Shown here piece after piece: positions 26,882 through 57,065 of a DNA stretch of 64,000 nt (position 1 is its first letter; every line of letters begins with the position of its first letter). The position numbers were made by a program, and so were the translations under genes. Origin of the DNA: Taenia hydatigena (taxonomy: Eukaryota > Platyhelminthes > Cestoda > Cyclophyllidea > Taeniidae); assembly GCA_036345935.2 (NCBI GenBank), contig JADWOT020000004.1:10806565-10870564 (forward strand), given 5' to 3'. The notes under the pieces are model-generated. The model was not told the origin of the DNA. It searched no databases and saw only the letters and a list, made by a program, of their open reading frames with translations.

Positions 26882-27550
26882 CATTTCAAAGCAAAATTTC
26901 TTACACGATTCGACCGTCTTTTGAGTTGTGCTGACTATTTGCTAGCTCTTGAAGCTGTCACTGTTAATGCCATGCCTATTGTGTACAGCAAGGACTTACC
27001 TGCTATTGATGATAGAGTGTTGAAGACATTGACAATGGGGAGATGGTGGTCACTCTTCTAGTGGCTTATGCTATTGAGCAACGGTGGGGTCATTGGGGTT
27101 GTGTCATTCAGGGTTGTTGCACGCCTGCTTCAGATGCCATTGTTGGATATTAATTAAAATCAGCACTAAGTTGGTGCATTAAGCTGTTGTTTTTCTCCGA
27201 ATGCTGTTTGTTGTGCAGTTCAGCCTGAGTTCTTGTTCACAAATGAAGATGATTGTAGAATTTGTCGACTTCACTCTATAAAACATTACATGTGTGCGTG
27301 CTGGTGGTGCAGATCTCCTTAATCCAAATGGCTCAACAGTGCGCGGATATATTTTGGCCTTGTGATTTCTAGATGTAGAGTTGGAGATGGGTGAGCTGGT
27401 TGGGTAATCTCTTGGCGCAGATGCAGACGTAAAACTGATACTTGGCTAATGCTTTCAGAGACTGCGCTGGCGTAGCATTTTGCTATGCAATACTTCACAC
27501 TTTCGTGATTGGAATCAAAATTCTCTAAAACTCTTTAAATTCCATCGCCT
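26882..27550. other. No gene recognised
   Basis: Intergenic sequence between the 26.5 kb exon and repeat A copy 2. No ORF of note. Confidence 0.4.
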
Positions 27551-29229
27551 GTTCAATGACTACAGAATGTCCCACTGTCCAATTCCTTAATCCATCTGCC
27601 GAATTTGGGAAGAATCTGGTGGGATGAAGCATAATTTATAATGGTAGAGGTGGTATGGCACTCAAATCAAGGATGGTACATTTTACTCAAGGCAGATGAC
27701 GATGAAGCCTTTAGCATAGTTTTAATCTTGGAATAAATCGCAAGGAGCAAGAGAGAAAATTATTCCCAGTGAATCACAAACCTCGTGCTTTTTCCCCATA
27801 GAATTCCAATTAATCGTGCGGGTGTTGTGCCATGCTGAATATGGGGCGTGATTCTATCACTACGTGGGATAAATCTTGTTACTTAAATTGCCGTTGGCAT
27901 CTACATGTGGGGAAGTCCCAACTAAATGCGAGTAGCAACGAGAGATTGATCAAACTTGAAGTTAATGAGTCATTAATCTGACAATTGCAACGATCCGACA
28001 ACAGGGTGTTTGACTTTCAAACATCTGGAAAAGTCTAAATATTGTCTTAGCTTCGAATGGTGGGGCATGACTTCCATGAGGAAAATTATCCCTCCATTAA
28101 ACAGTTGCCATTGAGAGCAATGGTGAACAATTTATTTGGTGCTTAAGAAGAATGGCACTAATTGATGTCGATTTAGTTAGGAAGTGGACGATGAAAATGC
28201 CTCTTTGTTGGAACTCACAGTCGAAGGCAACAACAGCTCACCAATCAAACTATGTGGCTATGATCCTATTTCAGGCTGAATAGTTATGAGGCAGGCCAAT
28301 TTAGTGTTTACAAGGAAATGTCGCGTTGCTTACATGTTTACATCTGTCCACTGCCAGAATAGCTGAAGACAAGGGCAAACAGCATCAACTTTGCGAAGAG
28401 TAAGTCTCAGTCTGCCTACCCTTCTTTCAACCACCCACTTAAAAAGGCATTTCGAGAGCTCCTTATTGGCAAGTGTTTTGTAGTTTAATGACGCACACTG
28501 CTGGTTTCTTGGCAGTAGCGATTAAATGCCACCAAGTTATGCGGCAGGGAGTGTGACGTGCGACTTGGTAAGGAATCCGACTGCAAAAACGAAAACAGGC
28601 CCGTCTTGATTAAAGCATGATTTCAGCAATCACTCATTTAGCTCCGAACAAGGCGAGAACTATCGGCAAAGAGAGCCCCACAGTGGTACAATATGGCCGA
28701 ATTGGCACTTTCGGAAAGCTTTAGAAAACACATTAATTCACTCGACACTTACACTACTTCCAAGCCCCATCTTTTGTGAAAGTTAACATGAAAGTCGCAC
28801 GTGTTGATATTTTTAATCGTGTAGGAAGAGTTTGCGTTTGAATCAAGCGCCCACGCATTTGAGTCCATATTTCACCATTGACTGCATCGTAACAAGAGCA
28901 GTATACGCCTCTAGTCAAGCCAAAGAAGGCGTTCAAGTCTAAAGATTTTAGCTATGTCGGTGACAGGCTCTCATGCTCGTGTCAAATGATTGCCCGTAAA
29001 CCTGGTTTCTTCAAGCCATGCTTTGGCCCGCTCTTCTAACTTGAGTTGGTTGTCAGTCAACTCATTGGCAATAAGTTGTCAGACAATCAATCACAAGACC
29101 TAGACTGGCCCTCTTTTAGGACTCCGCATCTCAAGTTCGACTGATCTTAGTGAAAAATTCTGTGAACTAGCACACGGTTTCACTTACGAGAAGAGTAGAA
29201 GCTAGAGAGTGCTTGTAAAATCACAGTGG
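27551..29229. repeat. Direct repeat A, copy 2
   Basis: Matches 5,729-7,412 end to end with point differences. At its right edge the shared sequence AAAATCACAGTGG passes into CCGTCGGCTTGG, which is repeat D material. Copy 1 passes into repeat B at the same place. Confidence 0.85.
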
Positions 29230-29702
29230 ACCGTCGGCTTGGCGATGGGCTACTTCTCATCAGTTATGCTGTCTGATCTCTGACACTTTTGTCTCCTCAG
29301 GCCAACTTTGTTCATCTCAAATGCTACCGCACACAACTGTACAGGTGGATGCTACACCAGCTTTTCCTCACATGATACATCGAAGCCACTCCTTTGTCGA
29401 TAGGACACTTCTCCATGTGTTGTTCTACGTTGATGAGAGTAAGGCTAGCAAGAAAAACAGGAGTCATTTGTCAACGCAACTGAGGTAATGGAAAGCACAT
29501 AATAATAGGCTGCAATAGTTTGAATAAGCTACCGCTCCTGATAATGCGAGAAATAATTTACCAGACGAGGTTTAAGTAATTAACGTGGTTCAAAATACTA
29601 GAAATGGAGGTGGAAGTAGTGGATCTTGCCTTGCAGAAAATGGGCATCGCAAGCAATATTGCCAGCAAATTTATCTGCTCTCAGTCTTGCAATACCTAGA
29701 GC

Positions 29703-30211
29703 ATGCCTTTACGTGAGAAACGGAGAGCACACGCAGCTTTCTTCGTTGTCGACAATGCTGGAAGTAGTGAAAGTTGTTACTGCATCAGAGGTAAGTTCAT
29801 AAAAGCACATAAGAATGTGGTCTTGATCCTTGTACCGCCTTATGTTTTTTCGTCACATGTCAAACGCACGTAGATCGTCTGGGTTTCGTGACTTGTCCAG
29901 CAAAAATAGCAGCATTAATTGGATTCAACAATGTCTGCTCCACAGCCTTAAGACATCAAAGTGCTTTGCGACACGGCCACCTCAACCTTATCTCCTCAGA
30001 CACAGTGGTGGTAAAAGAAGCCTTTATGCAGGTCTCACTACCGCAGAAATGGCATGGTGGAACAAATTCCCACCACATCCACAAAAGGGCCAATCACCAC
30101 AGATGGCTTTACACAGCAGCACAGTCACATGTATGGATTGTGACAAATGCAGCGAAAATTGACGTGACTTTTGTCGCTGCGTGTGACCAGTTCCAAATCG
30201 CACATCCGTAA
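29703..30211 (+). CDS. Repeat-D gene, copy 2 (exons a and b)
   Basis: Exon a starts at ATG 29,703 (MPLREKRRAHAAFFVVDNAG) and ends after 88 bases at GTAAGT. Exon b is open to TAA at 30,211, its clear part starting MTCPAKIAALIGFNNVCS and ending DQFQIAHP. The intron acceptor between them is not obvious: the interval is only about 50-90 bases and lacks a strong pyrimidine-AG. The product is not recognised. It may be a gene carried by a repeat rather than a host gene. Confidence 0.4.
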
Positions 30212-30309
30212 CGCGGACTAGGGAGAGACGATTTTTCGTTAATAATATTCCTTGGAAGACATGAGCACCATTGCGATTCTAACCATCCAATCATCCATCT
30301 TCTTTGCAA
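30109..30309 (-). other. Minus-strand shadow of exon b
   Basis: A minus-strand frame overlaps exon b and its 3' flank. It is not conserved as a frame at 3.7-4.0 kb and is listed only to state that it is not treated as a gene. Confidence 0.3.
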
Positions 30310-30639
30310 GTCTTTTCACCGCAGCGATATGTCACAATGATTAGTGGCTGTTAGACAACACAGAGAGGGTCCAAACACTTCCAGCCTTTGTCCCGGTCAA
30401 TGTGTGAGAGCTGTTGTGTACTTTTCCTGTAAATCTGCCCTAACTTTTGTTCCTTTTTACTGCAAAATGCTGGTTTTGCAGTCACTGTTACGGTTCCAAT
30501 GAGGACTAGACGAGTCGATCACAATTTGTCTGATGTTAACAGTTCACTCGCTGCAAGTGGATTAAAATAAGTCTAAACCACTCGTTTCAGTGACATTAGC
30601 TTTAGCACGACCTGGTGTGATCAAGGGTGCACACCTTGC

Positions 30640-31474: not shown

Positions 31475-31678
31475 ATGTGCCCACCCATTCACCCAGCTCA
31501 GCCTCAAAGGAAACCTTCATGTGTGCAAAATGCCTTAGGATACAAGCTAACCCCATCCCATACGGAGTACACATGGCAAGTGTGCATCATGGTAAGTCCC
31601 ACTCCCCTTTTCAAGGCGTGTATTGATGCACAAGCATTACTTAGCATTCAGGGACAACTCGATGACTTGTGTAATTGA
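31475..31678 (+). CDS. Hypothetical exon
   Basis: The plus frame contains NALGYKLTPSHTEYTWQVCI and ends ALLSIQGQLDDLCN before TGA. A second frame through the same bases ends at a possible donor, CATCATGGTAAGTCCC at about 31,588, so exon limits and frame are uncertain. Protein-like composition is the main support. Confidence 0.3.
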   Translation: MCPPIHPAQPQRKPSCVQNALGYKLTPSHTEYTWQVCIMVSPTPLFKACIDAQALLSIQGQLDDLCN

Positions 31679-31950
31679 GCAGGCAAATCAGGAGAATGAG
31701 TGCTTTCCATGCATCAATTTGCTGCACCACCAGTGCGCCTTTCGATGATTCACTCAACACTACCTCCATCAATTTAAGCATATCTTAGAATGTTTGTCAG
31801 CATGCTGTCTGGATTGATTGAGGATGGAGGTGTCGACTGGGAAGGTGCTCATACATCAAATGGGTAGGTAAATCTAAACATTGTCCTCATTACACTCGCA
31901 CCAGGGCGGCATCCAAGCACAAGCCTCCATACACAATCCTGCGTGCCAAT

Positions 31951-32190
31951 ATGCTCTCCCGGTGTGTTGATAAGGTATCTCAACTACCTCTAAATGCTGA
32001 AGCATGCGATGCACAATGTTTGGTGGATTGCAACTGGTTTGAGGAAGGCAATGACTTTGTCGTTGCTCCTGCCATGTCTTCTCAGAATATGAACTCCCAG
32101 TTAAACCAATTGCAGTCAAGCTGGATGGAAATCCGCAAGTTCAAATTGGAGTACACCCAGGCTAAAGAAGGAGGATGGAAATTAAGGTAA
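31951..32190 (+). other. ORF in outer left arm, not conserved in partner
   Basis: An 80-codon frame starting MLSRCVDKVSQLPLNAEACD. The aligned segment of the right arm (about 42,780-42,990) carries substitutions and indels that break it, so it is probably not coding, although it could be an exon lost from the other arm. Confidence 0.25.
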
Positions 32191-33741
32191 AATAATTATG
32201 TTTTAGGTAAAGTAAGTGGGAACAGAAACAAAAAAGCAAACTAAGGTGTAGTTGTTTGAGCAGGTTTTGCGAATTGAAATGATTGTACAGTAGATGCTAC
32301 GAGTGCTTGCTTGCTTGCTTGCAGTAGATAATTCCCAATCGCCCATTGAGATGCGTGCACTGACGGATTGTTCTAGCCTCTTGGAGGGCAAATTCTAGCG
32401 ATTTTATTTATTATATGCGGTATTCACAATCGCCTAGATGCGATATGCGGTGTGCACGGATGTGCACGTAGTGTGTGTCCAGTAGTGAGTGTGAACAATG
32501 AGGCCAACTAGCAATGGATGTGGGTTGTTGCGCATGTAAGTTCGTTTGCATTTGTACATCCACAATGATATGAATCACGCCTCAAGTTGGCCTTTTGCAC
32601 CAAAAACAAACGAATTCCGAACCACAAGTAACACGGCAAGATGACGTTGACTTCACCGAATGAAGCAGTCAGTTGAGCTCTTACTTTCAGCACATCCAGA
32701 TAGCTGCCAGCAGCACGCTGCTGCACATTACTTCAATTGGCATTGAAAAGCAGCGTTGCATAGACGAACCGCGCCGTTGTTACCGCCCATAGCAGCGAAC
32801 ACGAAACTGACGCTATGCCCACTGGTATGCAAACAATAGGCATGCATACATCTATTATGATTTCCAAAACTTAGATTTGTACCCCATATGCACATAATTA
32901 TGCATGATGCAAAAATACACTTCCGTATCAATGAAATCGTGCAAATATTTGATAAACACTTTCATGCACAAATCTGCCTTGAATTACTATCTTTAAAGGT
33001 AAACATCTTTCCTACAGATGCCTAATCAAGTCTGCATAAAACATTAATTTGTCTAACTCAAAGATTCATCTCTATCACTCGGTTGCACATAAATGCACAT
33101 TATTAATGCACGATGCATACCCAATGGCAATGCTCCTGCCACTCAACAAAACGCCCAAATTTATCTCATCACCCCGATTACAGGGGTGTGATTGCGCATC
33201 TGAAACACGAACTCGGGTTTGTTTAAAATTAGATGCGATTTTATACAAATACCTAAATTATTTCTTCGGGAAACACTTTGTTTGAGGATAGTCCCGTCAG
33301 CATGCTGCTTAATGGGATGCGTCGTAGGTTATTCAGCTCCTATCGACCTGTGCGTGCATTCTTGCTGATTTTGCAGATCTGATCTATGCACAATATCTCC
33401 CTTGCCTTAGGCAAGTCGGTCGCTTTAGTAAGGAAATGCAAGTACAAATGTGTTGCAGTGTGCTGCACACACTTGTGCAGTGTATGGTGTGTCTGGCAGT
33501 GGGTGAAGTGATGTGGGCGTGGATGTGAAGAGGCAGGCAAATGCGAATCAAATGCGTTTACGTGCACTCACCTGTTACATTGTCAGATGATGCTGTGAGG
33601 CAAGCACAGCCACTCCAGCCTCAAGCATTACTAGCACACTATCCTATCGTTATTGACCACATAGCGAAGTAGTTTCTGGTAAGACGCGCTCACATATGAA
33701 CCGTACGCAGTTGAATTAAGCACTGCATTGTGGCATGAAAC

Positions 33742-35326
33742 ATGAGAGCTCCTGCTCTTCCTTTCCATTCTACAAATCGAAAATCGGTGTTACACTTCAT
33801 TGTCATCTGCGCATCCATAAATTACCTTATCTACATTTATGCCATTCACTTCAAAACCACATCCTCCGAGAGGTGGGTAACTCAACCAAATCGCAACGGT
33901 ACTTACTGCGCATGGAACGATAGTATTTTTGCGAGCCCAAACGGCTACTATCGGCTGCGCCTGTGCTATACGAGCGTCTTCGACAAATCCAACCTACTAA
34001 ACACAACACCCACGATTGAAGAGTCGAAAATTCGAATAAACGGAAGCAGTAGACGCCTGAGATTTGAGGAGTTGGCAAGCATTCCGGATGCCGAGTGGTT
34101 ACCAAATTTTGATCCTAGCGTCTACCAGCTTTATCCTCAGTCGATTACCATGAGGGCTACACTGCAATCGCTCATTCATGACAAACCCATTTCTCACGTA
34201 CGCAGAAAGTCTACCATTGTTTATCATGACACCTTTTTCTTGTAAGTAGGCTAGCAGCCCTCCGTGTGGTAGTTAATATGTGTGGGTGCGTGTATGCATG
34301 AATATGCTTTTGCTCTTTCAATCATGACATCCCGTCCTCTACCGTCTTGCATGAAACAATATCTCAGGAATATTATTCTGTGACCTTGCATTCTTCTTTT
34401 AGTCTCCCCTTTACAATCCATGGATCCGATTTCTCCAAGTACCGTCTAGAGTATGCTCTCCTCTCATGCACCCACAAGCCACAGATGGGCTCGCCGGTGG
34501 ATTGTCTCGCCCTGACGTGGTGATTATCTACAAATCAGGGGTCTACAATTTTGAGGAGAGAAGTCAACTGCGCAAACTCTACCATCTCTACTACCCGGAT
34601 GTCAAGATTTACCTCATCTTCTCTATCGGCTTACCACGAACTTCGCTGGACAACGTATTTCAACGAGACGGATTCAATGTGACCCTTACTAACAGAGCAG
34701 GAAATAAACTGAAGGCATATTCACAGCATCCACAAAGGACAGCCGAAATGCTTTCCAGGGAAATGCACGAGTATGATGACCTACTTGTCGGTGACTACGA
34801 AGACTCCTACTATAATTTGACGCTGAAAATGTTCCACACATTCCAGTGGGCTGCTCGATTTTGTCGACTCTGCAAACCCATCTTCGTCTTTCTTGATGAC
34901 GACTATGCCGTCAATACAAATAAGTTAGTCACATTTGTACGCAGCCTAACACCGGAACTTCGAGAAAACCTGAACTACGGTTGCGAAGTGATGGTGAATC
35001 CTGTCTTTCGGCACACCAGTCCGTATCTGCAGTGGGCCTTCTCGAAGCGCGAAATTCCTTGGCCATTCCATACACCACAGTACTTGGGTATCTACAGTAT
35101 GTGGAGCTACCGTCATGTCCACGACTTGGCTCTGGCAATGCACTTCACTAAGCCCATGGCAATTGATGACACGTGGTTGGGGATGGTGCAGTACAAGCTG
35201 AATCTCACACCCAAGAGAATGGAAGGCATGTTCCGCGAGAGTTGGCCGATGCCCAAGCATGTCAACTGCTCCGATATCTTCTTTGCTCTTCTTAGCGAAT
35301 TTGAACAGCGCAAGTGCACATTGTAA
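33742..35326 (+). CDS. Beta-1,3-glycosyltransferase, GT31 family, left-arm copy
   Basis: GT31 enzymes are type II Golgi membrane proteins that add beta-1,3-linked Gal or GlcNAc from UDP-sugars. Exon 1 (33,742-34,241) encodes a short tail, a signal anchor at residues ~15-34 (VLHFIVICASINYLIYIYAI) and glycosylation sequons (NGTY, NDSI, NGSS). It ends TT|GTAAGT, phase 2. In exon 2 the frame reads VVIIYKSGVYNFEERSQLRK, DLLVGDYEDSYYNLTLK, the metal-binding DxD motif FLDDDYAVN, and DDTWLGM in place of the usual ED.YVG; it ends QRKCTL. If exon 2 starts at 34,403 the phase-matched frame (HGSDFSKYRLEYALLSC) stops at TGA 34,521-34,523. If it starts at the later acceptor TCTAG (34,450) the frame is open, about 458 residues. 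A brainiac-like or core-1-like function cannot be told apart. Sugar specificity is unknown. Confidence 0.8.
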
Positions 35327-36345
35327 AAGTAGTCCTACAAACTTGCTATGCTAAAATTAAATAAGCCTCTTGAGGCAAATGCTTATGCATTAAAAGCCGC
35401 ATGTTTGCACTCTCCACTAAGCAATGAAGCAGACCTAATTTCGAAATTCAACAGGAAGAGGTGAACACTTCCTGAACATCTCATCCTGATGCGAGGTATT
35501 TAGTGAACTTTGAACCAAATGTCTCTGTCACGTGTTTGCGGTGTAACCCCATAATCCTGTAATAGCAGCTCGAAGAACTGTTAGCATAGTTAAGAAGTTT
35601 GTTATGATTAGGGAAGCATTTCTGCCTTAATGAAGTTGCTCTGCTTCGACCGCCAGAGGCGTGACACGTTCTCTTGCCTCTAGGGTCTGGAATATGCCTT
35701 GTTCAGATAAATGTCGTCCTGAGAATATTCTTTCCGATTTCGGATCACAGATCTCATCACTTAAGCACTGTCACACCGTTGTTCAAGCTCTGCTTCATTT
35801 CTTTCTAATCGAACAGCCAAAAGTTTCATAGTTAGATATTGTGCTGTACAAAACTGTGAACCACATATATGCGTCGGAAGTGCAGAAATGGTGATAAGTT
35901 GTAACGCAGCGAATCTTTTCTATTGAGCAGTCAGCAATTTAGCTGTTGATGGTTCACTGCCAGATTTTGTGTGCCAAAGGGTGGACTCTATTTAACCTCA
36001 CTGTCGTGTTTTGCGCCAATTCCAACAGCTAGAGCTTCAATGAAGCGGCACACTGGCTTCATTCACAATACCTTCTCCATGCGTTTACAACCACACACCC
36101 ACTCGTTCACTCACTCCTCCATTAACACGGCTCTTTGGGCCATTGTCACACGCTCCTCCACACAATGATTAAGAGGTTGCAATAAAAATTACACCAAAAG
36201 TTTATGCATTCCTTAAGCCGGCACCAAGCTCGCTTTCTCTGTTTTCATCATTGCTATCTCCGTTGGCAGTACCCTGAGATACCTTTAAAGGTTCACTGCC
36301 ATTGCGAATAATAGCAGCCATGCAACAGTAAGGCAATCAGGCTGG
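35327..36345 (+). other. 3' flank of the left GT31 copy
   Basis: No gene. ATTAAA near 35,389 may act as a poly(A) signal. The open frame at 35,971-36,168 is identical to 39,007-38,810 only because the arms are nearly identical here, and it starts with GTG, so it is not taken as a protein. Confidence 0.5.
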
Positions 36346-36496
36346 TACTATTGTGAGGAAAAATTTGATGTAGAGGTAGTTGGTGTGGGTGTTGCTTTGC
36401 TTTTAATTTTGTAATGATTCAACCTTCATCTTGGCAAATGGAACGACTCGATTAAAAGTTGTTTAAGCAGTTTAAAGTGTTCGGCATCGGACCAGT

Positions 36497-37033
36497 TTAA
36501 TCCATACTGGACGTCGGGTGGTAAATGCAACAATGTCCCACTGATCGCCTAACAATTGATAGGCTTAGTACAAGTGTGCACTTCGAGCATTTGTCGCATG
36601 CATTTAGCTCTTGGGAAAAGAAGTTATCAATGCAAGTGGTGTAGGTGTGAGTGTGTGACTGGGTGCAATTGTGTGCATTTGGTACATCATTTAAAACCAT
36701 GTGAAAGTCATCGAGAGTGGGAGTCCAAAATGTAATCCACATTTTCCACTCACATTTTAGACAAGAAACTCTTATGCAAGAATGTAAAGTGCGTGTTTCA
36801 AATAATTGAGCGTTTAACGCCAAAAAGTCAGGTGAAGGTTGTAGTGCGGGCAACAGTTCATCGAAAAAGGAACATTTTAGCATAAATGCAAAAATAGACT
36901 TTAAATGAGCATGGGATCGCATCGCGATGTGTAGAGGCAGAACACACTGATGCCGTTGCTGCTGGCTGTCATCGAAGATGAAAGAACTTCTTCCTATCAA
37001 GGCAGAGGAAAAGTGATGAAACGAACCCCACAT
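36497..37033 (-). CDS. Hypothetical protein with conserved Cys-containing C-terminus
   Basis: A 178-codon uninterrupted minus frame, long for this window. Its last 36 codons (36,607-36,497), LNACDKCSKC to HPTSSMD, match the terminal exon at 12,444-12,554 in length, frame and stop. The bases before them are CCCAAGAG, compared with CTCAACAG at 12.4 kb, so a splice acceptor may still be used and the upstream part of the ORF may be intronic. The family is unknown. ATG usage at 37,033 is not established. Confidence 0.45.
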   Translation of the reverse strand: MWGSFHHFSSALIGRSSFIFDDSQQQRHQCVLPLHIAMRSHAHLKSIFAFMLKCSFFDELLPALQPSPDFLALNAQLFETRTLHSCIRVSCLKCEWKMWITFWTPTLDDFHMVLNDVPNAHNCTQSHTHTYTTCIDNFFSQELNACDKCSKCTLVLSLSIVRRSVGHCCIYHPTSSMD

Positions 37034-37096
37034 TTCAACAAGCTCTGAACTCTAATGCTAGTTGCAAGATAAGTTGCAGAACAAACACGGCTAATC

Positions 37097-37417
37097 TCAA
37101 GTCCTTACAAGATGGCAATTGCATCTGGCAATTGTACTTTTCAAAGGCTTTGCTGTTTCAGGTATGGCTTTGAATGAGTCACAAGTGCTGAACAAATCTA
37201 GATGGCAACGACCGACTGATGGGGTGATTTCGATGTGTGTTGTGAGAAGCTGTCGGGTTAGAGCCAAATATGAAGAGGTGACGAATACACACACACACGC
37301 ACACACAAGTTGGCTTAGGAGATGGGCTAATTTGATTTGACATCTCCGCTGCCTCCGGTTGGCTTTCTTTACTTTGTATCCTTTAGGAACTCGCAAAGTG
37401 CTGCTACTTATATGCAT
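37097..37417 (-). other. Unsupported minus ORF in the spacer
   Basis: 106 codons starting MHISSSTLRVPKGYKVKKAN, with a CA/GT-rich segment encoding a Cys/Val run. It overlaps a plus-strand ORF and has no clear partner at 12-14 kb. Kept as an observation only. Confidence 0.25.
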
Positions 37418-38637
37418 TTCGATTCATGCATATGCATTAGTTTACCTAGACCCATAAAGACTTCGCTTTGCCTGTTTTGTGGACCTGAACTAGATGCAAA
37501 ACGCTAGAATGCTCTTGTGACATTCTTTGCGAAATTGTCTGCTTCATGCACTACCGCATTTTCACCGCGGCATACATTTCCCAACGTGCTATACACCTAG
37601 GCGTTTTGCATTTATCCAAGCACAGCTTTTTATAAACAAGAGCTGGAAATCTCGAGTCCCTAAATTTCAGAGCGCTGTTGGAAGCGAAGTATTTAAGTCG
37701 ATTGTTTGCATCTTCACAGTGATGCACCGGAATAGGCTCATTGGAACGACAATCAAAGCATAAATTGTGAGTATGCTATTGCGAGATCACATCCTTGCCA
37801 CTTTTCTTGCCTTTCCTTCCCAAAAGCACTAGAAACATTTGTTTTCGAATGGCCTTGGGGCACTGAATGTAGCTGTTAATGATAATGGTTCTGTTGTAGT
37901 TTGTTGGTTTCTTACTTCGTCGTAATTAGAATGCCCATGTTGAGCTTTAATTTGACTAGTACTTTATTTCACCAGTCGTGATAATTATGGCAAGATGTTT
38001 TTTCATCTCTGTTAAATTTAATCTACTCTCAAGCGTTGATCCGTCTTCTGTAGACAGATTTATTTAAATACGTTCCAGTTCGAAAGGAACCCAGACATGC
38101 ACTATTGCTAAAAGAAATGGCACACGTTCCATTTAGTTGCCTGTTTTCTTCTCTTTTCGCACCAACACTTAGGTAGTTAAATAACCATTTAATTGGAAAA
38201 TCATGCGATTAGAGACTATTAACATTGTTGCTGAATACTTTTATTGCAGTTGCCTTCTTTACGCCTACAAGAGGTTACGCCTCGAAATTCTTCACGCGCC
38301 ATTCGCATCATTCTTGCTAAACGATGAGTGAGGGAAAAAACATGTATGATGACCGGTTTCTGCCTAAACTCCTGCTCTCCCTCAAAAGTCGATTCGTGCT
38401 AACTTGAAATAGTTAGTGGGACTCGCGTAACCACAGCGAAGTTAAATACAATAAGCGCTAAAACGCCACATTACCAGAATCACAGGCTTTAAGATTCCAT
38501 TTCCGATAAGGTTAGGTGGGCAAATTTTATAAGAGAGAATAGACTGGAAGATGAAATCGCAGCAGTCCCAAAAGATAAGCCCTATATTTGATCTTGAGTG
38601 GTCGCATTGAAGTGGGCAGTTCTATTTCCCTCTACTC

Positions 38638-41600
38638 CTAATTGCCTTACTGTTGCATGGCTGCTATTATTCGCAATGGCAGTGAACCTTTAAAGGTATC
38701 TCAGGGTACTGTCAACGGAGGCAGCAATGATGAAATCAGGGAAAGCGAGCTTGGTGCCGGCTTAAGGAATGCATAAACTTTTGGTGTAATTTTTATTGCA
38801 ACCTCTTAATCATTGTGTGGAGGAGCGTGTGACAATGGCCCAAAGAGCCGTGTTAATGGAGGAGTGAGTGAACGAGTGGGTGTGTGGTTGTAAACGCATG
38901 GAGAAGGTATTGTGAATGAAGCCAGTGTGCCGCTTCATTGAAGCTCTAGCTGTTGGAATTGGCGCAAAACACGACAGTGAGGTTAAATAGAGTCCACCCT
39001 TTGGCACACAAAATCTGGCAGTGAACCATCAACAGCTAAATTGCTGACTGCTCAATAGAAAAGATTCGCTGCGTTACAACTTATCACCATTTCTGCACTT
39101 CCGACGCATATATGTGGTTCACAGTTTTGTACAGCACAATATCTAACTATGAAACTTTTGGCTGTTCGATTAGAAAGAAATGAAGCAGAGCTTGAACAAC
39201 GGTGTGGCAGTGCTTAAGTGATGAGATCTGTGATCCGAAATCGGAAAGAATATTCTCAGGACGACATTTATCTGAACAAGGCATATTCCAGACCCTAAAG
39301 GCAAGAGAACGTGTCACGCCTCTGGCGGTCGAAGCAGAGCAACTTCATTAAGGCAGAAATGCTTCCCTAATCATAACAAACTTCTTAACTATACTAACAG
39401 TTCTTCGAGCTGCTATTACAGGATTATGGGGTTACACCGCAAACACGTGACAGAGACATTTGGTTCAAAGTTCACTAAATACCTCGCATCAGGATGAGAT
39501 GTTCAGGAAGTGTTCACCTCTTCCTGTTGAATTTCGAAATTAGGTCTGCTTCATTGCTTAGTTGAGAGTGTAAACATGCGGCTTTTAATGCATAAGCATT
39601 TGCCTCAAGAGGCTTATTTAATTTTAGCATAGCAAGTTTGTAGGACTACTTTTACAATGTGCACTTGCGCTGTTCAAATTCGCTAAGAAGAGCAAAGAAG
39701 ATATCGGAGCAGTTGACATGCTTGGGCATCGGCCAACTCTCGCGGAACATGCCTTCCATTCTCTTGGGTGTGAGATTCAGCTTGTACTGCACCATTCCCA
39801 ACCACGTGTCATCAATTGCCATGGGCTTAGTGAAGTGCATTGCCAGAGCCAAGTCGTGGACATGACGGTAGCTCCACATACTGTAGATACCCAAGTACTG
39901 TGGTGTATGGAATGGCCAAGGAATTTCGCGCTTCGAGAAGGCCCACTGCAGATACGGACTGGTGTGCCGAAAGACAGGATTCACCATCACTTCGCAACCG
40001 TAGTTCAGGTTTTCTCGAAGTTCCGGTGTTAGGCTGCGTACAAATGTGACTAACTTATTTGTATTGACGGCATAGTCGTCATCAAGAAAGACGAAGATGG
40101 GTTTGCAGAGTCGACAAAATCGAGCAGCCCACTGGAATGTGTGGAACATTTTCAGCGTCAAATTATAGTAGGAGTCTTCGTAGTCACCGACAAGTAGGTC
40201 AGCATACTCGTGCATTTCCCTGGAAAGCATTTCGGCTGTCCTTTGTGGATGCTGTGAATATGCCTTCAGTTTATTTCCTGCCCTGTTATTAAGGGTCACA
40301 TTGAATCCGTCTCATTGAAATACGTTGTCCAGCGAAGTTCGTGGTAAGCCGATAGAGAAGATGAGGTAAATCTTGACATCCGGGTAGTAGAGATGGTAGA
40401 GTTTGCGCAGTTGACTTCTCTCCTCAAAATTGTAGACCCCTGACTTGTAGACAATCACCACGTCAGGGCGAGACAATCCACCGGCGAGCCCATCTGTGGC
40501 TTGTGGGTGCGTGAGAGGAGAGCATACTCTAGAGGGTACTTGGAGAAATCGGATCCATGGATTGTAAAGGGGAGGCTAAAAGAAGAATGCAAGATCACAG
40601 AATAATGTTCCTGAGATATTGTTTCATGCAAGGCGGTAGAGGACGGGATGTCATGAGTGGAAGAGCAAAAGCATATTCATGCATTCACATACCCACACAT
40701 ATTAACTACCACACGGAGGGCTGCTAGCCCACTTACAAGAAAGTGGTGTCATGAAAAGCAATGGTAGACTTTCTGCGTACGTGAGAAATGGGTTTGTCAT
40801 TAATGAGCGATTGCAGTGTAGCCCTCATGGTAATCGACTGAGGATAAAGCTGGTAGACGCTAGGATCAAAATTTGGCAACCACTCGACATCCGGAATGCT
40901 TGCCAACTCCTCAAATCTCAGGCGTCTACTGCTTCCGTTTATTCGAATTTTCGACTCCTCAATCGTGGGTGTTGTGTTCAGTAGGTTGGATTTGTCGAAG
41001 ACGCTCGTATAGCACAGGCGCAGCCGATAGTAGCCGTTTGGGCTCGCAAAAATACTATCGTTCCATGCGCAGTAAGTACCGTTGCGATTTGGTTGAGTTA
41101 CCCACCTCTCGGAGGATGTGGTTTTGAAGTGAATGGCATAAATGTAGATAAGGTAATTTATGGATGCGCAGATGACAATGAAGTGTAACACCGATTTTCG
41201 ATTTGTAGAATGGAAAGGAAGAGCAGGAGCTCCCATGTTTCATGCTACAATGCAGTGCTTAATTCAACTGCGTGCAGTTCATATGTGGGCGCGTCTCACC
41301 AGAAATTACTTTGCTAAGTGGTCTAAAACGATAGGATAGTGTGCAAATGATGCTTGAGGCTGGGGTGGTTGTGCTTACCTCACAGTATCATCTGGCAATG
41401 TAACAGGTAAGTGCATTTGCCTGCCTCTTCACATCCACGCCCACATCACTTCACCCACTGTCTGACGCACCACACACTGCACAAGTGTGTACAACACACT
41501 GCAACACGGTTGTGCTTGCATTTCTTTACTAAATCGACTGGTTTGCCTATGGCAAGGGAGATACTGTGCATAAATCAGATCTGCAAAATCAGCAAGAATG

Positions 41601-43020
41601 CACGCACAGCTCGATAGGCGCTGAATAACCTACGACGCATCCCATTAAGCAGCATGCTGACAGGACTATCCTCAAACAAAGTGCTTCCCGAGGAAACAAT
41701 TTAGGTATTTGTATAAAATCGTATCTAATTTTAAACGAACCCGAATTCGGGTTTTAGATGCGCAATCACACCCATGTAATCGGGGTGATGGGATGAATTT
41801 TGGCATTTTGTTGAGTAACAGTAGCATTGCCATTGGGTATGCATCGTGCATTAATAATGTGCATTTATGTACAACCGAGTGATAGGGATGAATCCTTGAG
41901 TTAGACAAATTGATATTTTATGCAGACTTAATTAGGCATCTGTGGGAACGATGTTTACCTTTAACGATAATAATTCAAGGCAGATTTGTGCATGAAAGTG
42001 TGCATCAAATATTTGCACGCTTTCATTGATACGGAAGTGTATTTTTGTATCATGCATAAGTATGTGCATATGGGGGAACGGATCTATGTTTTGGAAATCA
42101 GAATACATGTATGCATGCCAGTGAGCATAGCGTCAGTTTAGTGTTCCCTGCTATGGGCGGTAACGATGACGCGGTTCTTCTATGCAGCGCTGCTTTTCAA
42201 TGCCAATTGAAGTAATGTGCAGCAGCGTGCTGCTGGCAGCCATCAGGATGGGCTGAAAGTAAGAGCTCAACTGACTACTTCATTCGGTGAAGTAGACGTC
42301 ATCTTGCCGTGTTAGTTGTGGTGCGGAATTCGCTTGTCCTTGGTGCAAAATGCCAAATTGAGGCGTAAATGGCTTCGTCAGCAGCATGGTTCATGGCATT
42401 GTGGATGTACAAATGCAAACCAACTCACATGCGCGACAACCTACATGCGTTGCTAGTTGGCCTCATTGTTCACACCCACCACCGGACACACACTACCTGC
42501 ACATCCGTGCAGACCGCATATCGCATCTAGGCTATTGTGAATACCGCATATAATAAATAAAATCGCAAGAATTTGTCCTCCAAGAGGCTAGAACAATCCA
42601 TTTCACCAGACAGTTTGGTGACCTAATGCAAGCAAACACTCGTAGAATCTACTGAACAATCATTCCAATTCGCAAAACCTACCCATACAACCACACCTTA
42701 CTTTGCCTGAATTTATTCTCACCTAGCTTTATCCATAATTATTTTTTCCTTATTACGATTCCTTCCCTCTGGTTCGATTTTACTCATGTTTTAACTGGTG
42801 AATCTGCAGCTAGCTTGACTCTAGTTGTTTTATCTCTGAGTTCGTATGCTGAGAAGATGTAGCAGGAGCATTGGCAAAATTAATGCATTTCTCAGAGCAG
42901 ATGCATTGTATCGAACAGTGCATTGCTTACTTTAGAATGTTAAGAAGTAGTCGAGATACCTTAGCAACACACCAGCTTGTGTATGGAGGCTTACGATTGG
43001 ACGCCAATGAAAAGTGGCAT
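38638..43020 (-). repeat. Palindrome IR2, right arm (~4.4 kb)
   Basis: Inverted partner of 31,905-36,345. The inner boundary is at ATTGCCTTACTGTTGCATGG (38,641) and the outer boundary is near CGATTGGACGCCAATG (about 42,995-43,010). Divergence rises outward. The right GT31 copy carries the same intron position and the same exon lengths (500 and 924 bases) as the left. Confidence 0.9.
39652..41236 (-). pseudogene. Beta-1,3-glycosyltransferase, GT31 family, right-arm copy with nonsense codon
   Basis: Mirror of the left copy: exon 1 41,236-40,737 (MGAPALPFHSTNRKS, same signal anchor), intron, exon 2 40,575-39,652. The codon at 40,314-40,312 is TGA where the left copy has CGA (34,664-34,666), in the middle of VFQRDGFNV. 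That is a C-to-T change at a CpG, and it removes everything after it, including the DxD motif. The remaining 215 codons downstream are open and differ from the left copy by only a few residues (for example EYADLL for EYDDLL). The splice-frame ambiguity of exon 2 is shared with the left copy. It is likely a very young pseudogene, unless the stop is an assembly or allelic variant. Confidence 0.8.
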
Positions 43021-45137
43021 TAGCGGTTGGGTGGCACCGGGTTTCAGTACCCATTGGGTGGAGATGGACCCACACGACTACCACCAGTTACTTTGACATT
43101 GTCACTGAATCGCAAATGAAAATTGTGATCTATTACGATTATCTATCTAGCCAAGGGCGCAAATATATCAATGCGTCAGAAGCTTCATGCATTAAAGCTT
43201 TGAGGATGTGAAGTCATTTAGGTGCGAATTTCCCTTAAATGCGCTGCTTCATTTGATACCGTTTAATGGCTGATGAATGACACGAGCATGGAGCACATGA
43301 CTTGAAGTTTATTTCGCAAGCTGTTAGCGTGCTTTTTCACTTTTGCTTTTGACATCTAGCAGAGCAGCCACTAATGGATTTGCGTTTTGTTCTTTGTTAG
43401 AGAGCAGCTTTCTTCCGTGGTGGTTAATAGAGGAGGTTGCTTGCAACAGGTTCGACCGCAAAAGTTGGGCTACGATGATTCACTCAACCGCGTGTTGACC
43501 TACCTGCCCACTTGAGTCCCCACAGGTCCCATTTCTGCCCCAGAATCTTGCCATTTGCCATATATTCAACGCACTTCATGCACCCCATCCAGCCTTTAGC
43601 GTACATGGAGGAAGATACAATGACCACAACGCAGATCATGATCCAAATTATACATTGCTATAAAAAAGCTAAGGACAACGGATCAAATGTCGTCTAAAAC
43701 TAGGAATTGTATAAAAATTAGCTAATTAACTGGATGTCATGGCAAATATGCTTGATGTAAGTTGCGTTAGAGCGCCTTAGCTGTACTATATCTAGCTTTG
43801 AAGTGTTACATTGTAGAAGACAGAGCAAGAAATTGCGCCTGATAAGACAAGGGTGTCAGATCGTAGGGCAAGTCAAGTCTCGCGTCTAAGAGTGGCAAGC
43901 CCACACTTGATGCGTACATGTGATGGAGTGGTGTGACTCCTACACAGTGTGACTGCTAAGAGCAGTGGAAGTGTGTTTGAAAACTAACATATGCAGGTAG
44001 GCATTGTTCTGACTGCATTCTGTTCGCCTTCTGGCGGACTCGGCATGCACTGCAATCCGACACTTTTGCTTTCTCGCACTAATTTCTGCATCGCTTTACC
44101 ACTAAACGCTGCACCAATTTCTGGTCGCAGAACGCATCAAAGCCACCCAATGAGATGGTCAGTCCAAGTGGCCTTTGATCACATTAGCCTCACGGACAGT
44201 TGAGGTTTAAAACTGGTGCAATTTTTAGGATACTGCTGTATTTCTTGTAATCCTCTCACTGGTGCTACCTGGATATGTTCTACTTCACAAGAGTGTCGAC
44301 TACAATGCTTCCGTACTGATTGGAGGCCTGGTGATTTACCGTTCAATTGCGTCAAAATGGATGGTGGCAGGTACATGCGACAATCGAAGTGGTTAAGCAA
44401 CCGTAATTGCAGTTGCAATGGTTTTGTATTCGCAAGCCGTATCTTCTGCTGCATCACTTTATTTGATAGGCGCCTTGCTACTGTTAGGAGATAGGTGAAA
44501 CAGGCACATATTTTGAACTACTAAAAGAAACAGAAGATGGAATCATGAGGTGCATGGATAATAGCACAAATGTAACCGTATATACGATTTTTGTTAAAAC
44601 CAACTCAACTTAAGTAGTAATGGGACAGACTTTTAAGCTAACCATGTTGGAAGACGTCTTTGTAACGAGTTGCTTTTGGCATGATATCTTAGTCATACTA
44701 AGCGAACCACAGGAACGATCGCTCCATCATACCACGTGCGGCTGTGAAGAGATGGTGCATTAGTCTACGACGGTGGGAGGGAATGCGTGGTGGTCTCACA
44801 GCTACTTCATTTCCTAATGACAGTCTTTTGCGGTTTCGCAATGTGTGGATCAAAGTAAAGGAAATGCATGATCCAGTTAGTGAGTGAGTAAACAAAGAGT
44901 AAGTCTGAGTATGGCCGCATAGCTTAGTTAACAAAGTTCCGCTGATCAAAATTTTCGCATAGAATAGAGGTCAGTTACATTTTGTGCTACATTCCTAAGG
45001 ATTGCTGGGATGCAAGTTTCCTCATAAAGGGGATATCCGGTTCCAAGCTATAGGCATGATGATCGGGCTGGAGCCGGTGACAGCATCATCAACTGCAGCA
45101 GCAAGATTTGTAGCTCGTCCAAGTGGTCCCACCCATT
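43021..45137. other. No gene recognised
   Basis: Short ORFs only (43,014-43,211; 43,512-43,697; 44,216-44,494 plus; 44,457-44,179 minus). The 44.2 kb pair overlaps on opposite strands with equal length, one Cys-rich and one Gln/Leu-rich, and neither has independent support. Confidence 0.4.
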
Positions 45138-45398
45138 TTAGCTAATATACCCTCCTTGCAATAATGGTTGCTTCGAATGGAAAAGATTTGGGGTACTAGA
45201 ATGGTCGTTGGGTAGAAACGCTAATCGCACTATCCTGATCCTTAGAGTTAAGTCTACTGCGGCACAATGTGTCCCTGTATCGACTAAGACAGAGTCCGCA
45301 TAGTTGTAGAATGAGCCAGAGTGTAAAACCTCCACAGCGCCTTGACATCTAAATGCCTTGTGTATTTTGGCACTTAGTTCGTTGGAAAATGTGCGCAC
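45138..45398 (-). CDS. Hypothetical protein exon
   Basis: ATG-less frame of 86 codons (the ORF start is GTG), minus strand, containing ELSAKIHKAFRCQGAVEVLH and LRIRIVRLAFLPNDHSS. Balanced composition suggests coding. There is no duplicate, no recognised family and no certain splice sites. Confidence 0.3.
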   Translation of the reverse strand: MRTFSNELSAKIHKAFRCQGAVEVLHSGSFYNYADSVLVDTGTHCAAVDLTLRIRIVRLAFLPNDHSSTPNLFHSKQPLLQGGYIS

Positions 45399-45589
45399 AG
45401 CCTTGCAGTGTGGTTAGCTGTTGCTGAAAAGAAAGGAGTGGCATTGGTGAATGAAGTGAGCTGGTTGTTAATGCGGCATTTTTCGAATTACCGTCTTGCG
45501 TGAATGAAGATAAACTGGGTAGGCGAATGAGTGAGTAAAAGAAGAGAAGGCAGGATCAACTTGCTCTTCTCGAAGTTGTTGCTACTAGC

Positions 45590-45790
45590 ACCGCCTGTTT
45601 GCCCTTGCCTCTTCTTTATCTGCACCGAGCTGTGGTGAGCATCGAATTGGCCTCCCTCACGACTAGTCAGCCTGAGACGCGATTATAAGCACATCGAAAC
45701 GTTGCTGAGACGTCATTACTTGCTGCTGCTTTGTGTCCTACTAAAGTAATGCATTTTCCCTACATATTTCCCAATCAAAACAACATCGTA
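45590..45790 (+). repeat. Direct repeat E, copy 2
   Basis: Partner of 19,222-19,450; see shared words there. About 30 bases shorter owing to internal deletions. Confidence 0.65.
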
Positions 45791-46643
45791 ATTGTGTGTG
45801 TTGAGCAATAATCGTTGGCCTACTGAAAGCAGTTGAGCTTAGCAGCGTTGTTGATCGTGTTGTTACGACCAGTGTCACAAGTGGGCGTTAATCAGAGCTG
45901 GCTAGTAGTGGTGGCGTCGCATCTGAGCATGCATTTTATCATTTTTATTGGTTTGAATTAAGAGTAGGCAAAGTGACCGCGTCTAACTTGGTGACATGTC
46001 GAGCAGTCACGAGTAGTGAAACCTCACCAATCCAACCATGAGTGGTTAATGTCCTGTAAATCGCCACATGTGACAAGAGATAGTAAAGCTGCATTACATT
46101 CCTCTCAAACCCACCATTCGTAGTCAAACATTGTGTGCATTGTCGCTAGCTTCACGGCGCATGGATTTCAGTGCATCGTGCTACATGATGAACACGCTTC
46201 AGTCATGAGAGCAAAACTATCTTTAAAGAGCTAAATTTTGACTCTTCAAATCGGTGGAAAATAGTAGAGGTGATTGGACAAATAATGCTCTTAGTTGTAC
46301 GTCCTTTGATAACACCACGCTTTGCAATCCATTCAATTCCAACGTCACTTCTTGGAGGAATTGATGATGAAAGAGGCCTTTCCTTATGCTCAAATGTAGA
46401 GCTTGCTTGATGAGGAACGTCCCAGAAAACAGATTTGTAATTGTGCAGCATCTGAACTTAAATATCCGCAGGCATCTACTTGGAGTTGTTGTTAATGTCT
46501 GTAATAAATGTGGCGCAGAGCAGTGAGACATCATTTTAATGCAGCAGAAGGTAGGCGCGGCAGCCCTACATAAAACGCTACAGCTTTTATATTCACTGAC
46601 AACAAATAACAAGAATTCACGGATGCATATATTGGTGTTCTTC
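45791..46643. other. No gene recognised
   Basis: The minus-strand ORF 46,645-46,223 (140 codons) overlaps a second minus ORF in another frame and has no partner or motif. Confidence 0.35.
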
Positions 46644-46768
46644 ATCGTGTAGGAAGAGTGTGCGTTGAACTTAAAAGCCCACCCATTTGAGTTTTAGATT
46701 TCACCACCAGCTGTATCTTAACATGAGCAGCATATGCATCTGGTCCAACCCAAAAAGCCGTTCAACGC
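46644..46768. repeat. Repeat A fragment, third copy
   Basis: ATCGTGTAGGAAGAGTGTGC through AAAGCCGTTCAA matches about 28,816-28,936 and 6,995-7,120 with substitutions. It ends 15 bases before the left edge of IR3, so it replaces whatever lay upstream of the coiled-coil gene in the other arm. Confidence 0.65.
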
Positions 46769-46782
46769 TAGGTCGGCGAGTA

Positions 46783-47575
46783 GCGTTGTTGGCGAAACTG
46801 TACCCAATCCATCTGACTCTCTTTTCTCCCATCACTCAGTACAACCTAATGCTGCGTTCCATGCTGCATGATCTGTCTCACCAAGGGGCGATGCTAAAGT
46901 CGCGTAAGGAGCAGTTAGAGGAGGTGAAGTCATCGACGTCAGAGAGGGAGAAGAAAGCGAAGGATGAAATTATTGAGGTCATGGAAGGAGCAGTGCTGCA
47001 GTTTTGTGCGGCGGCGAACACAGCTCTGAATGCTGCCATGGCGAAAGTGGAGAAGGCGAATGAGGCTAGCCACGAGAGCATAAGCAAACTCGTGCGAAAG
47101 ACCTTGGACCTGGATTCAGAAGCAAGCAAGATGCAAGATGTCTGCGCGTCGCTGAATGGGATTACAGTGAGTGGCAGTGACTGTTGTTGCATAGTGTGTT
47201 GAAAAGTCTTCCAACTGGTCCTTCCAATTCCTCTTCTTGCATCCTATCCTTTCTGCCTTCTCTATCTTACGCTTTATTTGTTCCTTCCCTGCTATAGCAT
47301 TTGTAAGAAGCACTGGCGAAACAAAAGTGGTTGGAATGGCTCCGTCGTGAAGTCACGCTTTTGGAGGCAGAGGAGATGATTGAACACCAAAGACCTACGT
47401 CCATCATTCAGATGCAGGTGTCTGATGGATTCACTAAAGTAAGTTATTAAACGTGCGAGTAAACTTTGACTCATTAAATCTAACCTACGAGTTTTGCCTT
47501 TCGCAATGGATCAAGAGATAGCGAAGCAACGATTCGACTGGGGAAACAAATCTATCAGTTTTAGTCAAAGCAAAG
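46783..47575 (+). repeat. Inverted repeat IR3, left arm
   Basis: Reverse complement of about 52,545-53,340, covering all three exons and both introns of the coiled-coil gene. Indels are few. Confidence 0.85.
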
Positions 47576-47808
47576 TATGTGTCCGGGTGTTCCAACTCTC
47601 TCCTTCGATCTTGCCCTCCCTCTCTCCTCCATCCCATGTTTCATTTGCACCTTCGCTGCCATAGCATTTACAGGAAGCATTGGCGAAACAAAAGTGGTTG
47701 GAATGACCCCGTCGTGAAGCCACGCTTTTAAAAGAGGAGGAAGTGGTGGCGGAAAATGAAAGATCTACGTCCATTACACAGATGCAGGTGTCTGATGGAT
47801 TTACCATG
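46849..47808 (+). pseudogene. Coiled-coil protein gene, plus-strand copy, splice-damaged
   Basis: Exon 1 (46,849-47,166) reads MLRSMLHDLSHQGAMLKSRK and 86 further helical residues to a GTGAGT donor. Exon 2 (47,307-47,438; LAKQKWLEWLRREVTLLEAE) should follow an AG, but the site is TTTGTAA where the minus copy has TTTGCAG. The nearest AG is one base later and would shift the frame. Exon 3 (from 47,527) reads RFDWGNKSISFSQSK and meets a GTATGT possible donor at 47,575. A second copy of exon 2 follows at 47,674-47,808 with a good acceptor (TTTACAG) but TGA at 47,704-47,706 in place of TGG. It is a decayed copy with an extra exon unit. Confidence 0.65.
47674..47808 (+). repeat. Tandem duplicate of coiled-coil exon 2
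   Basis: ALAKQKWLE, stop, PRREATLLKEEEVV and MQVSDGFTM align with exon 2 at 47,307-47,438; the flanking intron words (CATTT.CAGGAAGCA, GTAAGT.A.TAAAC) are shared too. One extra codon. The nonsense change is TGG to TGA. Confidence 0.7.
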
Positions 47809-52505: not shown

Positions 52506-53272
52506 CTACTTTGGCATGTCGAAATTGACTTCGCCCCGTACGCCTACTTCACTTTGACTGAAACTGATAGATTTGTTTCCCCAGTCGAATCCTTGCTTCC
52601 CTATCACTCGATCCATTGCAAAAGGCAAAACTCGAAGGTTAGATTCAATGAGTCAACGTTTACTCACACGTTTGGTAACTTACTTTAGCGAATCCGTCAG
52701 ACACGTGCATCCGAATGATGGACGTAGGTCTTTGGTGTTCCATCATCACCTCTCCCTCCAAAAGCCTGACCTCACGACGGAGCCATTCCAACCACTTTTG
52801 TTTCACTAATGCTTCCTGCAAATGCTATAGCAGGAAAGGAACAAATAAAGCGTAAGATAAAAAGGCAGAAAGGATACGATGCAAGAGGAGGAATTGGAAG
52901 GATCAGTTGGAAGACTTTTCAACATAATATGCAACAACAGTCACTGCCACTCACTGTAATCCCATTCAGCGACGCGCAGACATCTTGCAACTTGCTTGCT
53001 TCTGAATCCAGGTCCAAGGTCTTTCGCACGAGTTTGCTTATGCTCTCGTGGCTAGCCTCATTCGCCCTCTCCACTTTCGTCATGGCAGCATTCAGGGCTG
53101 TGTTCGCCGCCGCACAAAACTGCAGCACTGCTCCTTCCATGACCTCAATAATTTCATCCTTCGCTTTCTTCTCCCTCTCTGACGTCGATGACTTCACTTC
53201 CTCTAACTGCTCCTTACGCGACTTTAGCATCGCCCCTTGGTGGGACAGATCATGCAGCTTGGAACGCAGCAT
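52506..53272 (-). CDS. Coiled-coil protein, intact three-exon copy
   Basis: Exon 1 53,272-52,955 (106 codons from ATG), exon 2 52,815-52,684 (44 codons), exon 3 52,595-52,506 (29 codons and TAG), all phase 0, with GTGAGT and GTAAGT donors and introns of 139 and 88 bases. The ~179-residue product starts MLRSKLHDLSHQGAMLKSRK and is strongly helical (EQLEEVKSSTSEREKKAKDE; ALNAAMTKVERANEASHES). It continues LVKQKWLEWLRREVRLLEGE and ends EVGVRGEVNFDMPK. The pattern resembles the coiled coil that follows B-boxes in TRIM proteins, but no RING or B-box is seen, so this is only a suggestion. The exon 3 acceptor (GGGAAG) is weak; the alternative GATAG one step upstream would give a different short tail. 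Confidence 0.65.
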
Positions 53273-53340
53273 TAGGTTGTACTGAGTGATGGGAGAAAAG
53301 AGAGCCAGATGCGTTGGGTACAGTTTTGCCAACAACGCTG
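52545..53340 (-). repeat. Inverted repeat IR3, right arm
   Basis: Partner of 46,783-47,575. The outer edge near 53,340 falls at CCATTCCGTAAAACATG, where the left arm instead continues into the repeat A fragment. Confidence 0.85.
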
Positions 53341-53591
53341 CTCCATTCCGTAAAACATGTGTCGACCACCTCGTCACATACAAGGTGCGAGAACAATGTC
53401 ATGCCACAAGAACTACTTTACTTTTACACGTCGCCAACAACTATCCGTTACAATGCCTTGAATTTGAAATCACAGCCATTGAGCCACATGGCATCTTCCT
53501 CACTAACCACATAGAACAGTCACGTGTAGCTCATATGCCAAAATACATGGGTACGAAGTCACCACACGGATTTGTCCACTCTAAACAATGA
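53286..53591 (+). other. Plus ORF overlapping the 5' flank of the coiled-coil gene
   Basis: A 101-codon frame with VANNYPLQCLEFEITAIEPH and GIFLTNHIEQSRVAHMPKYM, ending SKQ. Protein-like beyond the IR3 edge, but its first third lies in the IR3 arm on the opposite strand from the gene. Possible exon of a divergent gene; unproven. Confidence 0.3.
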
Positions 53592-56288: not shown

Positions 56289-56338
56289 GAAAGAGTCTTG
56301 TGAGACGAGTGGAGAGAGGATGTAATGATTATCCTCGC

Positions 56339-56806: not shown

Positions 56807-56810
56807 ACCA

Positions 56811-57065
56811 CCATCACTACTACTACTACTACCACCACCACCACCACAACCACAACCACCACCACCACCACCACCACCACCACCACCACCACCACCACCA
56901 CCACCACCACCACCACCACCACCACCACCACCACCACCACCACCACCACCACCACAACCACCACCACCACCACCACAACCACAACCACCACCACAACCAC
57001 AACCACCACCACCACCACCACAACCACAACCACCACCACCACCACCACCACCACCACTACTGCCA
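56811..57065. repeat. Expanded (CAC)n/(CAA) tract, about 250 bases
   Basis: CAC units interspersed with CAA. All six frames are open, giving runs of Pro, His, Thr on one strand and Gly, Val, Trp on the other; none is taken as a protein. It sits where the 61.6 kb copy has only a short proline-coding stretch, so it is a local expansion. Confidence 0.95.

Follow-up and report, generated by a model that had tools for sequence, protein, structure and literature searches.

A palindromic pair of galactosyltransferase-like genes in Taenia hydatigena, with arms that are probably a mosaic drawn from a dispersed gene family

A 64,000-nucleotide stretch of the Taenia hydatigena genome (contig JADWOT020000004.1; hereafter the window, meaning the whole stretch that was analysed) contains a palindrome, in which two inverted arms, each with a galactosyltransferase-like gene, lie around a spacer. 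Comparison of the window with itself using blastn recovers the inverted pair 31,961-36,341 / 42,973-38,637 at 92.5% identity over 4,408 columns, and local alignment extends the homology to 31,908 and 43,005 (score 156; none of 200 shuffles scored above 16). The arms span approximately 31,908-36,341 and 38,637-43,005, with a spacer of 2,295 bp, in agreement with a preliminary description of this DNA that had reported arms of about 4.4 kb around a 2.3-kb spacer. The 198 bases at 35,971-36,168, which that description held to be identical to 39,007-38,810, are so at 198 of 198 positions, and they lie within an identical run of 466 bases (35,772-36,237); redistributing the mismatches 10,000 times gave a longest run of 222. 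Each arm carries one two-exon gene with a 205-bp GT-AG intron, and the two genes are convergent:

33,742-34,197, plus strand: gene A exon 1, 152 codons (reading frame, GT donor and match to relatives)
34,198-34,402, plus strand: gene A intron (GT...AG), 6.3% from the gene B intron
34,403-35,326, plus strand: gene A exon 2, 307 codons and a stop; GT31 catalytic domain with DDD motif
39,652-40,575, minus strand: gene B exon 2, containing an in-frame TGA
40,576-40,780, minus strand: gene B intron, from the reading of the gene structure
40,781-41,236, minus strand: gene B exon 1, from the same reading

Gene A is open over 459 codons, its splice donor at 34,198 being placed by homologues, and the TGA of gene B, which is codon 240, precedes the DDD motif. 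Exon 2 of gene A matches the Pfam family Galactosyl_T (PF01762) with 71.9 bits (E = 7.7e-20) and the open part of gene B with 72.8 bits, the curated cut-off being 23. A structure model of gene A exon 2 [predicted local distance difference test (pLDDT) 82.2, predicted template modelling score (pTM) 0.85] has 63 matches in the PDB at E <= 0.001, the best of which is human B3GNT2 (6wmo_B, 5.8e-16), and it aligns with human B3GALT5 (8zwp_B) at a template modelling (TM) score of 0.67. From domain match and modelled fold, the arm genes are predicted to be beta-1,3-galactosyltransferase-like members of GT31, a family that includes both galactosyltransferases (GalT) and N-acetylglucosaminyltransferases (GlcNAcT). 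Family membership, together with passages of the literature, suggests that these genes probably build tapeworm surface glycans.

A protein search returned 55 relatives, and all those with a species name are from tapeworms, the closest belonging to Taenia, Hydatigera and Echinococcus. We built a 25-protein tree, in which several forks are open and three rows are under half filled, and for which the searched proteins are not a census. The five copies from the genome of the window form one clade (99/95) in it, adjoining one protein each from T. solium, T. asiatica, Hydatigera and E. granulosus. The tree fits an amplification of the gene family within the lineage of T. hydatigena itself. Two near-identical gene models of E. 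granulosus, ECG_08716 and ECG_08713, share one internal skip and are possibly another duplicated galactosyltransferase pair.

To place the palindrome within its own genome, we searched the 306-Mb assembly, in which the window is C4:10,806,565-10,870,564, for the spacer. At least 78 matches were found, 75 on contig C4 (6.69-13.92 Mb) and 3 on contig C434; the copy counts rest on this spacer search, for which the best 40 of 145 candidates were scored, and are lower bounds. The spacer occurs at full length at five loci, four of them two-armed (the window and 12.66, 8.86 and 10.63 Mb) and the fifth, at 6.69 Mb, complete on one side but reduced to 546 bp of arm on the second. Twenty further stretches include 14 single-gene units, one single unit with a palindrome-like gene (12.31 Mb) and two truncated units without a gene. 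Below, P denotes a palindromic arm or copy and S a single-gene unit, with the number giving the position in Mb on C4 and A or B the arm. The truncated units (L036 and L037; C4, 13.01 and 11.65 Mb) consist of a 3' flank and a right spacer half, and adjoin DNA resembling window 44,773-46,765.

Stops interrupt three of the ten palindromic copies (window arm B at codon 240, P10.63B and P6.69B at codon 45; the reading for P12.31s covered exon 2 only) and six of 12 single units in an alignment-based reading that covered exon 2 only for 7 of the 12. Some copies of the gene are broken and others open.

The order of parts in the single units is gene, 3' flank, right spacer half (inverted), gap and left spacer half. 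Side B of the palindrome retains the single-unit junction of 3' flank to spacer, and side A is without the stretch that separates the 3' flank from the left spacer half:

36,342-38,636, plus strand: spacer, with five full copies; single units have both halves downstream of one gene, but reordered and reoriented
37,291-37,373, plus strand: 83-bp piece inverted relative to single units, the putative tail-to-tail junction
38,637-39,651, minus strand: 3' flank of gene B (inner arm B), its spacer junction as in single units

Taken together, the unit order, the inverted 83 bp and the side B junction indicate that the palindrome consists of two units joined tail to tail, by a mechanism that we infer.

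As the preliminary description had maintained, the divergence between the two arms is uneven. By the Bayesian information criterion (BIC), a single rate (2060) is rejected in favour of a logistic gradient (1740) or of three steps (1708), and a smooth outward gradient is in turn rejected because the three-step model has the lower value. Divergence amounts to 32.1% in the outermost part (31,961-32,370), 8.2% and 10.6% in two segments of the 5' flank, 1.3% in exon 1, 6.3% in the intron, 1.1% in exon 2, and 0.55% in the 3' flank (35,327-36,237), the least of all parts. The inner portion of arm A divides as follows:

34,697-36,237, plus strand: homogenised core of arm A, which takes in the 3' flank and the last part of exon 2 and differs from arm B by 0.45%
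36,238-36,341, plus strand: innermost end of arm A, 104 bp, 5.8% from arm B

The arms are therefore most alike over exon 2 and the 3' flank and not at the centre. Substitutions and indels are indeed concentrated at the outer ends, as had been claimed; six of the seven gap events fall at or outside 33,542 and the remaining one at the inner edge of the alignment. An overall rise of divergence outward also stands, but it is stepwise and non-monotone, interrupted by the intron and by the innermost 104 bp. The inner 2.6 kb of the arms are 98.5% identical, with mismatches unevenly spread (dispersion P = 0.001, longest run P = 0.016). We think that what had been described as one gradient is best read as three layers of different cause.

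The outermost layer concerns the flanks, where the two arms differ in type:

31,491-32,515, plus strand: S-type outer flank of arm A, of which 31,491-32,370 is 93.3% identical to single unit L031
32,516-32,915, plus strand: interval with a putative recombination breakpoint in arm A, S-type outside and palindrome-type inside
32,371-33,741, plus strand: 5' flank of gene A, which differs by about 8-9% from flanks of either type, palindrome or single-unit
41,237-43,005, minus strand: 5' flank of gene B, palindrome-family type, 0-5% from the five longest-flanked other palindrome-family arms (exception: segment 5fl3 of P12.66A, 9.5%)
42,599-46,882, strand not assigned: duplicated block running outward from arm B, 98.8% identical to the 6.69-Mb copy

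To assign these types we used diagnostic sites, defined as fixed in nine palindromic arms and in single units, with at least six P and three S rows required. Arm A is S-type at 95 of 100 sites in its outermost part and at 37 of 38 sites in 32,202-32,515, and P-type at all 17 sites from 32,916. Six palindromic arms have data for the outermost part. Arm A differs there from all six by 31-33% and from three single units by 6-10%, whereas arm B, itself one of the six, differs from the remaining five by 0-2.4%. The likeness of arm B to the 6.69-Mb copy spans 4,284 bp, as far out as DNA was fetched. Together, the S-type sites and the flank matches indicate that the steep step at the outer end reflects a different flank and not decay. 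The middle layer of arm A, from the 5' flank to the intron, is about equally distant from single units and palindromic arms.

Similar switches occur in the sister arms. P12.66A is of class 1 at 13 of 13 sites up to 33,443 and then of class 2 at 9 of 11 sites up to 33,704, with the switch located in 33,443-33,463, and P8.86B combines an S-like exon 1 and intron (1.5% to S9.22) with a P-type core. The change to palindrome type falls in exon 2 in both P8.86B and arm A, and upstream of exon 1 in P12.66B. Exchange tracts with differing ends, as seen in these sister arms, resemble what conversion would leave. Relative to the spacer, the two flank types have changed sides between the window and 12.66 Mb, an arrangement that would be expected from crossing over between inverted arms, and would also be expected from a misjoin in the identical core.

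The inner layer is one of uniformity across palindromes. In the 3' flank, mean divergence is 0.73% between palindromic arms (45 pairs), 6.91% between single units (66) and 8.69% between the two groups (120), and in the right spacer half the corresponding values are 1.51%, 5.83% and 6.29%. Divergence between palindromic and single units is thus comparable in 3' flank and spacer (8.7% and 6.3%), and the palindromic cores are about ten-fold more uniform than single units. In nine of ten locus pairs, which are non-independent, the palindromic 3' flanks diverge less than the palindromic spacer halves (exception: 10.63-6.69, 0.49% compared with 0.00%). The low divergence among palindromes relative to that among single units indicates that the palindromic cores are young or homogenised, the arms more so than the spacers.

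If this uniformity arose between the two arms of each palindrome, each arm would be closest to its partner. We observe no significant tendency of this kind: on sequence distances, partner arms show no significant excess of likeness over arms taken from different palindromes. In segments 1 to 9, divergence within and between palindromes is 7.14 and 6.36, 6.18 and 5.35, 1.70 and 1.69, 3.17 and 2.67, 2.04 and 2.00, 0.32 and 0.53, 0.69 and 0.74, 0.51 and 0.82, and 3.61 and 2.97%, respectively, and the true pairing of arms ranks 11th of 105 possible pairings in the core, 15th in the 3' flank and last in the innermost part. These similar values and ranks leave at most a weak excess of likeness between partner arms in the core. 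Close relatives lie at other loci: gene B differs by 0.50% from P8.86A and by 1.83% from gene A, P12.66B by 0.06% from P10.63A, and P10.63B by 0.00% from P6.69B. One allele, at 34,771, is common to both arms of the window and was not seen in the other eight arms. On GC-biased replacement, derived changes in the arms comprise 20 weak-to-strong (W-to-S) against 16 strong-to-weak (S-to-W).

To account for these layers, we propose that the mosaic probably arose through recombination among dispersed GT31 copies, with the core homogenised family-wide. The palindrome belongs to a family of GT31 galactosyltransferase units that is amplified and dispersed, and here two such units stand tail to tail with a rearranged spacer between them. 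Ectopic (between-locus) recombination would account for the outer step, where arm A has a single-unit flank as far as about 32.5-32.9 kb and arm B the palindrome-family flank. The inner step would reflect homogenisation among palindromic copies at loci up to megabases apart, covering the core from exon 2 through the 3' flank, most likely by gene conversion or the copying-in of palindromic cores, and the ends of the homogenised tracts would differ among palindromes. Several points weigh against this proposal. The within-palindrome distance is somewhat below the between-palindrome distance in three core segments. Variation in the core is only about 0.5%, a resolution too low for donors to be named. 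The pairwise homoplasy index (PHI) test on ten palindromic arms gave no significance for the whole (P = 0.57) or the gene (P = 0.89) and weak significance for the 3' flank (P = 0.03); with single units added, and also among single units alone, it gave a clear signal (0 of 2,000 permutations). The arm alignment holds 12 of the 14 single units, three with a full 5' flank. Finally, a recent common origin of the cores with subsequent swaps of flanks would require less conversion.

This last point leads to the strongest alternative, that one fold-back duplication gave identical arms, whole palindromes spread recently, and outer flanks were swapped by crossing over, with no conversion at all. The A-side and central junctions are common to all five spacer copies (part of this comparison covering the window and one single unit), core and spacer are both young among palindromes, and the second arm of the 6.69-Mb copy is truncated, as this account would have it. 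We nevertheless hold it to be unlikely, because the spacers diverge more than the 3' flank in nine of ten pairs of palindromes, no core site divides the arms of one side from those of the other, P12.66A contains an internal exchange tract, and the 5' exchange ends differ.

The preliminary description had proposed repeated conversion between the window's own two arms, strongest at the centre and fading outward. Its view of the inner part as homogenised is borne out, in that the 3' flank is nearly uniform among ten palindromic arms, and the heterogeneous near-identity of the inner 2.6 kb, the slightly lower within-palindrome distances in the core and the shared allele at 34,771 are all in keeping with it. 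The specificity for the partner arm is not: the true pairing is only 11th of 105, and the nearest relatives lie in other palindromes. A spread from the centre outward is not supported at either end, since the centre-most 104 bp are 5.8% divergent, with true pairs last of 105 there, and the outermost step is a different flank. We regard this account as improbable.

An assembly artefact, in which reads of different family copies or haplotypes were misjoined, is in our view quite improbable. N runs are present at three of the four other spacer loci in the fetched DNA, near-identical cores make misjoins easy, and the orientation of flank to spacer varies between copies. However, the window is without any N, the change of type in arm A falls at a place where the copies are about 8% divergent, outside the identical core, and mixed flanks are found again at 12.66 Mb, along with a 1.2-kb deletion private to that copy. 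Purifying selection on the gene alone, which the low divergence of the exons (1.1-1.3%, against 6.3% in the intron) and a mean ratio of nonsynonymous to synonymous differences (pN/pS) of 0.58 among nine arms might suggest, is very hard to credit as the sole cause, because no part diverges less than the 3' flank, which is non-coding (0.55% between the arms, 6.9% among single units), synonymous divergence (pS) is 2.3% compared with 8-11% in the 5' flank, and the contrast of 0.73% with 8.69% in the 3' flank indicates homogenisation that did not act through protein selection alone.

Beyond the proposed recombination among dispersed copies, the palindromic arrangement may itself drive concerted evolution, with palindromic cores exchanged over megabases and overwriting single units from the centre outward while single units drift; we put this forward tentatively, and doubt it more than we believe it. 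Were it true, one contig would amount to a natural experiment in which the two arrangements of a single gene can be compared directly. The same gene is present as palindromes and as single units within one 7-Mb region, which allows arms to be compared with sister arms, and the family offers a test of whether homogenisation is faster in palindromes than in single units. Arm-to-arm conversion is the usual explanation for inverted gene pairs whose centres are identical. Recombination with other loci can also yield a gradient from centre to edge, and hence a gradient alone is no proof of arm-to-arm conversion.

Other repeats occur in the window. A second inverted pair (46778-47587 / 52535-53343) is 93.7% identical, with an open frame of about 160-175 amino acids on each side, the left one, which was the one scanned, having no Pfam match above cut-off. 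The direct repeat 56327-56790 / 61096-61559 is 99.1% identical and has a 172-amino-acid open frame, also with no Pfam match above cut-off, and an array of 84 ACC triplets occupies 56807-57057, a stretch with a GC skew of -0.50. Three more pairs (10-1095 / 58393-59465, 5729-7415 / 27549-29229 and 2836-4324 / 29050-30392) have 87-94% identity, and parts of them recur beside units L019, L022, L027, L028 and L034. Scans of the window found no tRNA genes and no Rfam RNAs.

In the open-licence literature, we found nothing that joins cestodes, palindromes and gene conversion, and the papers listed for most of the related terms did not contain the word 'tapeworm'. Continuous duplications along tapeworm evolution have been described for a galactosyltransferase family (PMC5036155), in an article whose retrieved passages mention neither palindromes nor gene conversion (0 occurrences of the latter term). 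The preliminary description had likened the palindrome to those of sex chromosomes, a setting for which we find no support; tapeworms of the taeniid group are hermaphrodites. The human Y palindrome P6 has, as here, two arms and a spacer, with arms less divergent than the spacer between copies (PMC3723533), and changes of orientation in sex-chromosome palindromes are reported there as rare inversions. However, P6 arms differ by about 0.02% (PMC3723533), in contrast to 7.5% overall in the tapeworm, where near-identity does not extend over the whole arm length and the exchange partners would include other loci. Similar in form are the inverted-repeat gene pairs of Caenorhabditis, one example of which is 100% identical over the first 297 nt and 59.6% identical overall (PMC1803023). 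In both systems homologous genes face opposite ways within long inverted repeats, pairs have been duplicated as units, and the centres are alike with outer gene ends diverged (PMC1803023), although the tapeworm profile is not monotone. The Caenorhabditis pair given in detail is divergent (PMC1803023), whereas the tapeworm pair is convergent with the identical part on the 3' side, and the tapeworm palindrome has many dispersed copies together with single units, and arms that are not closest to their partners.

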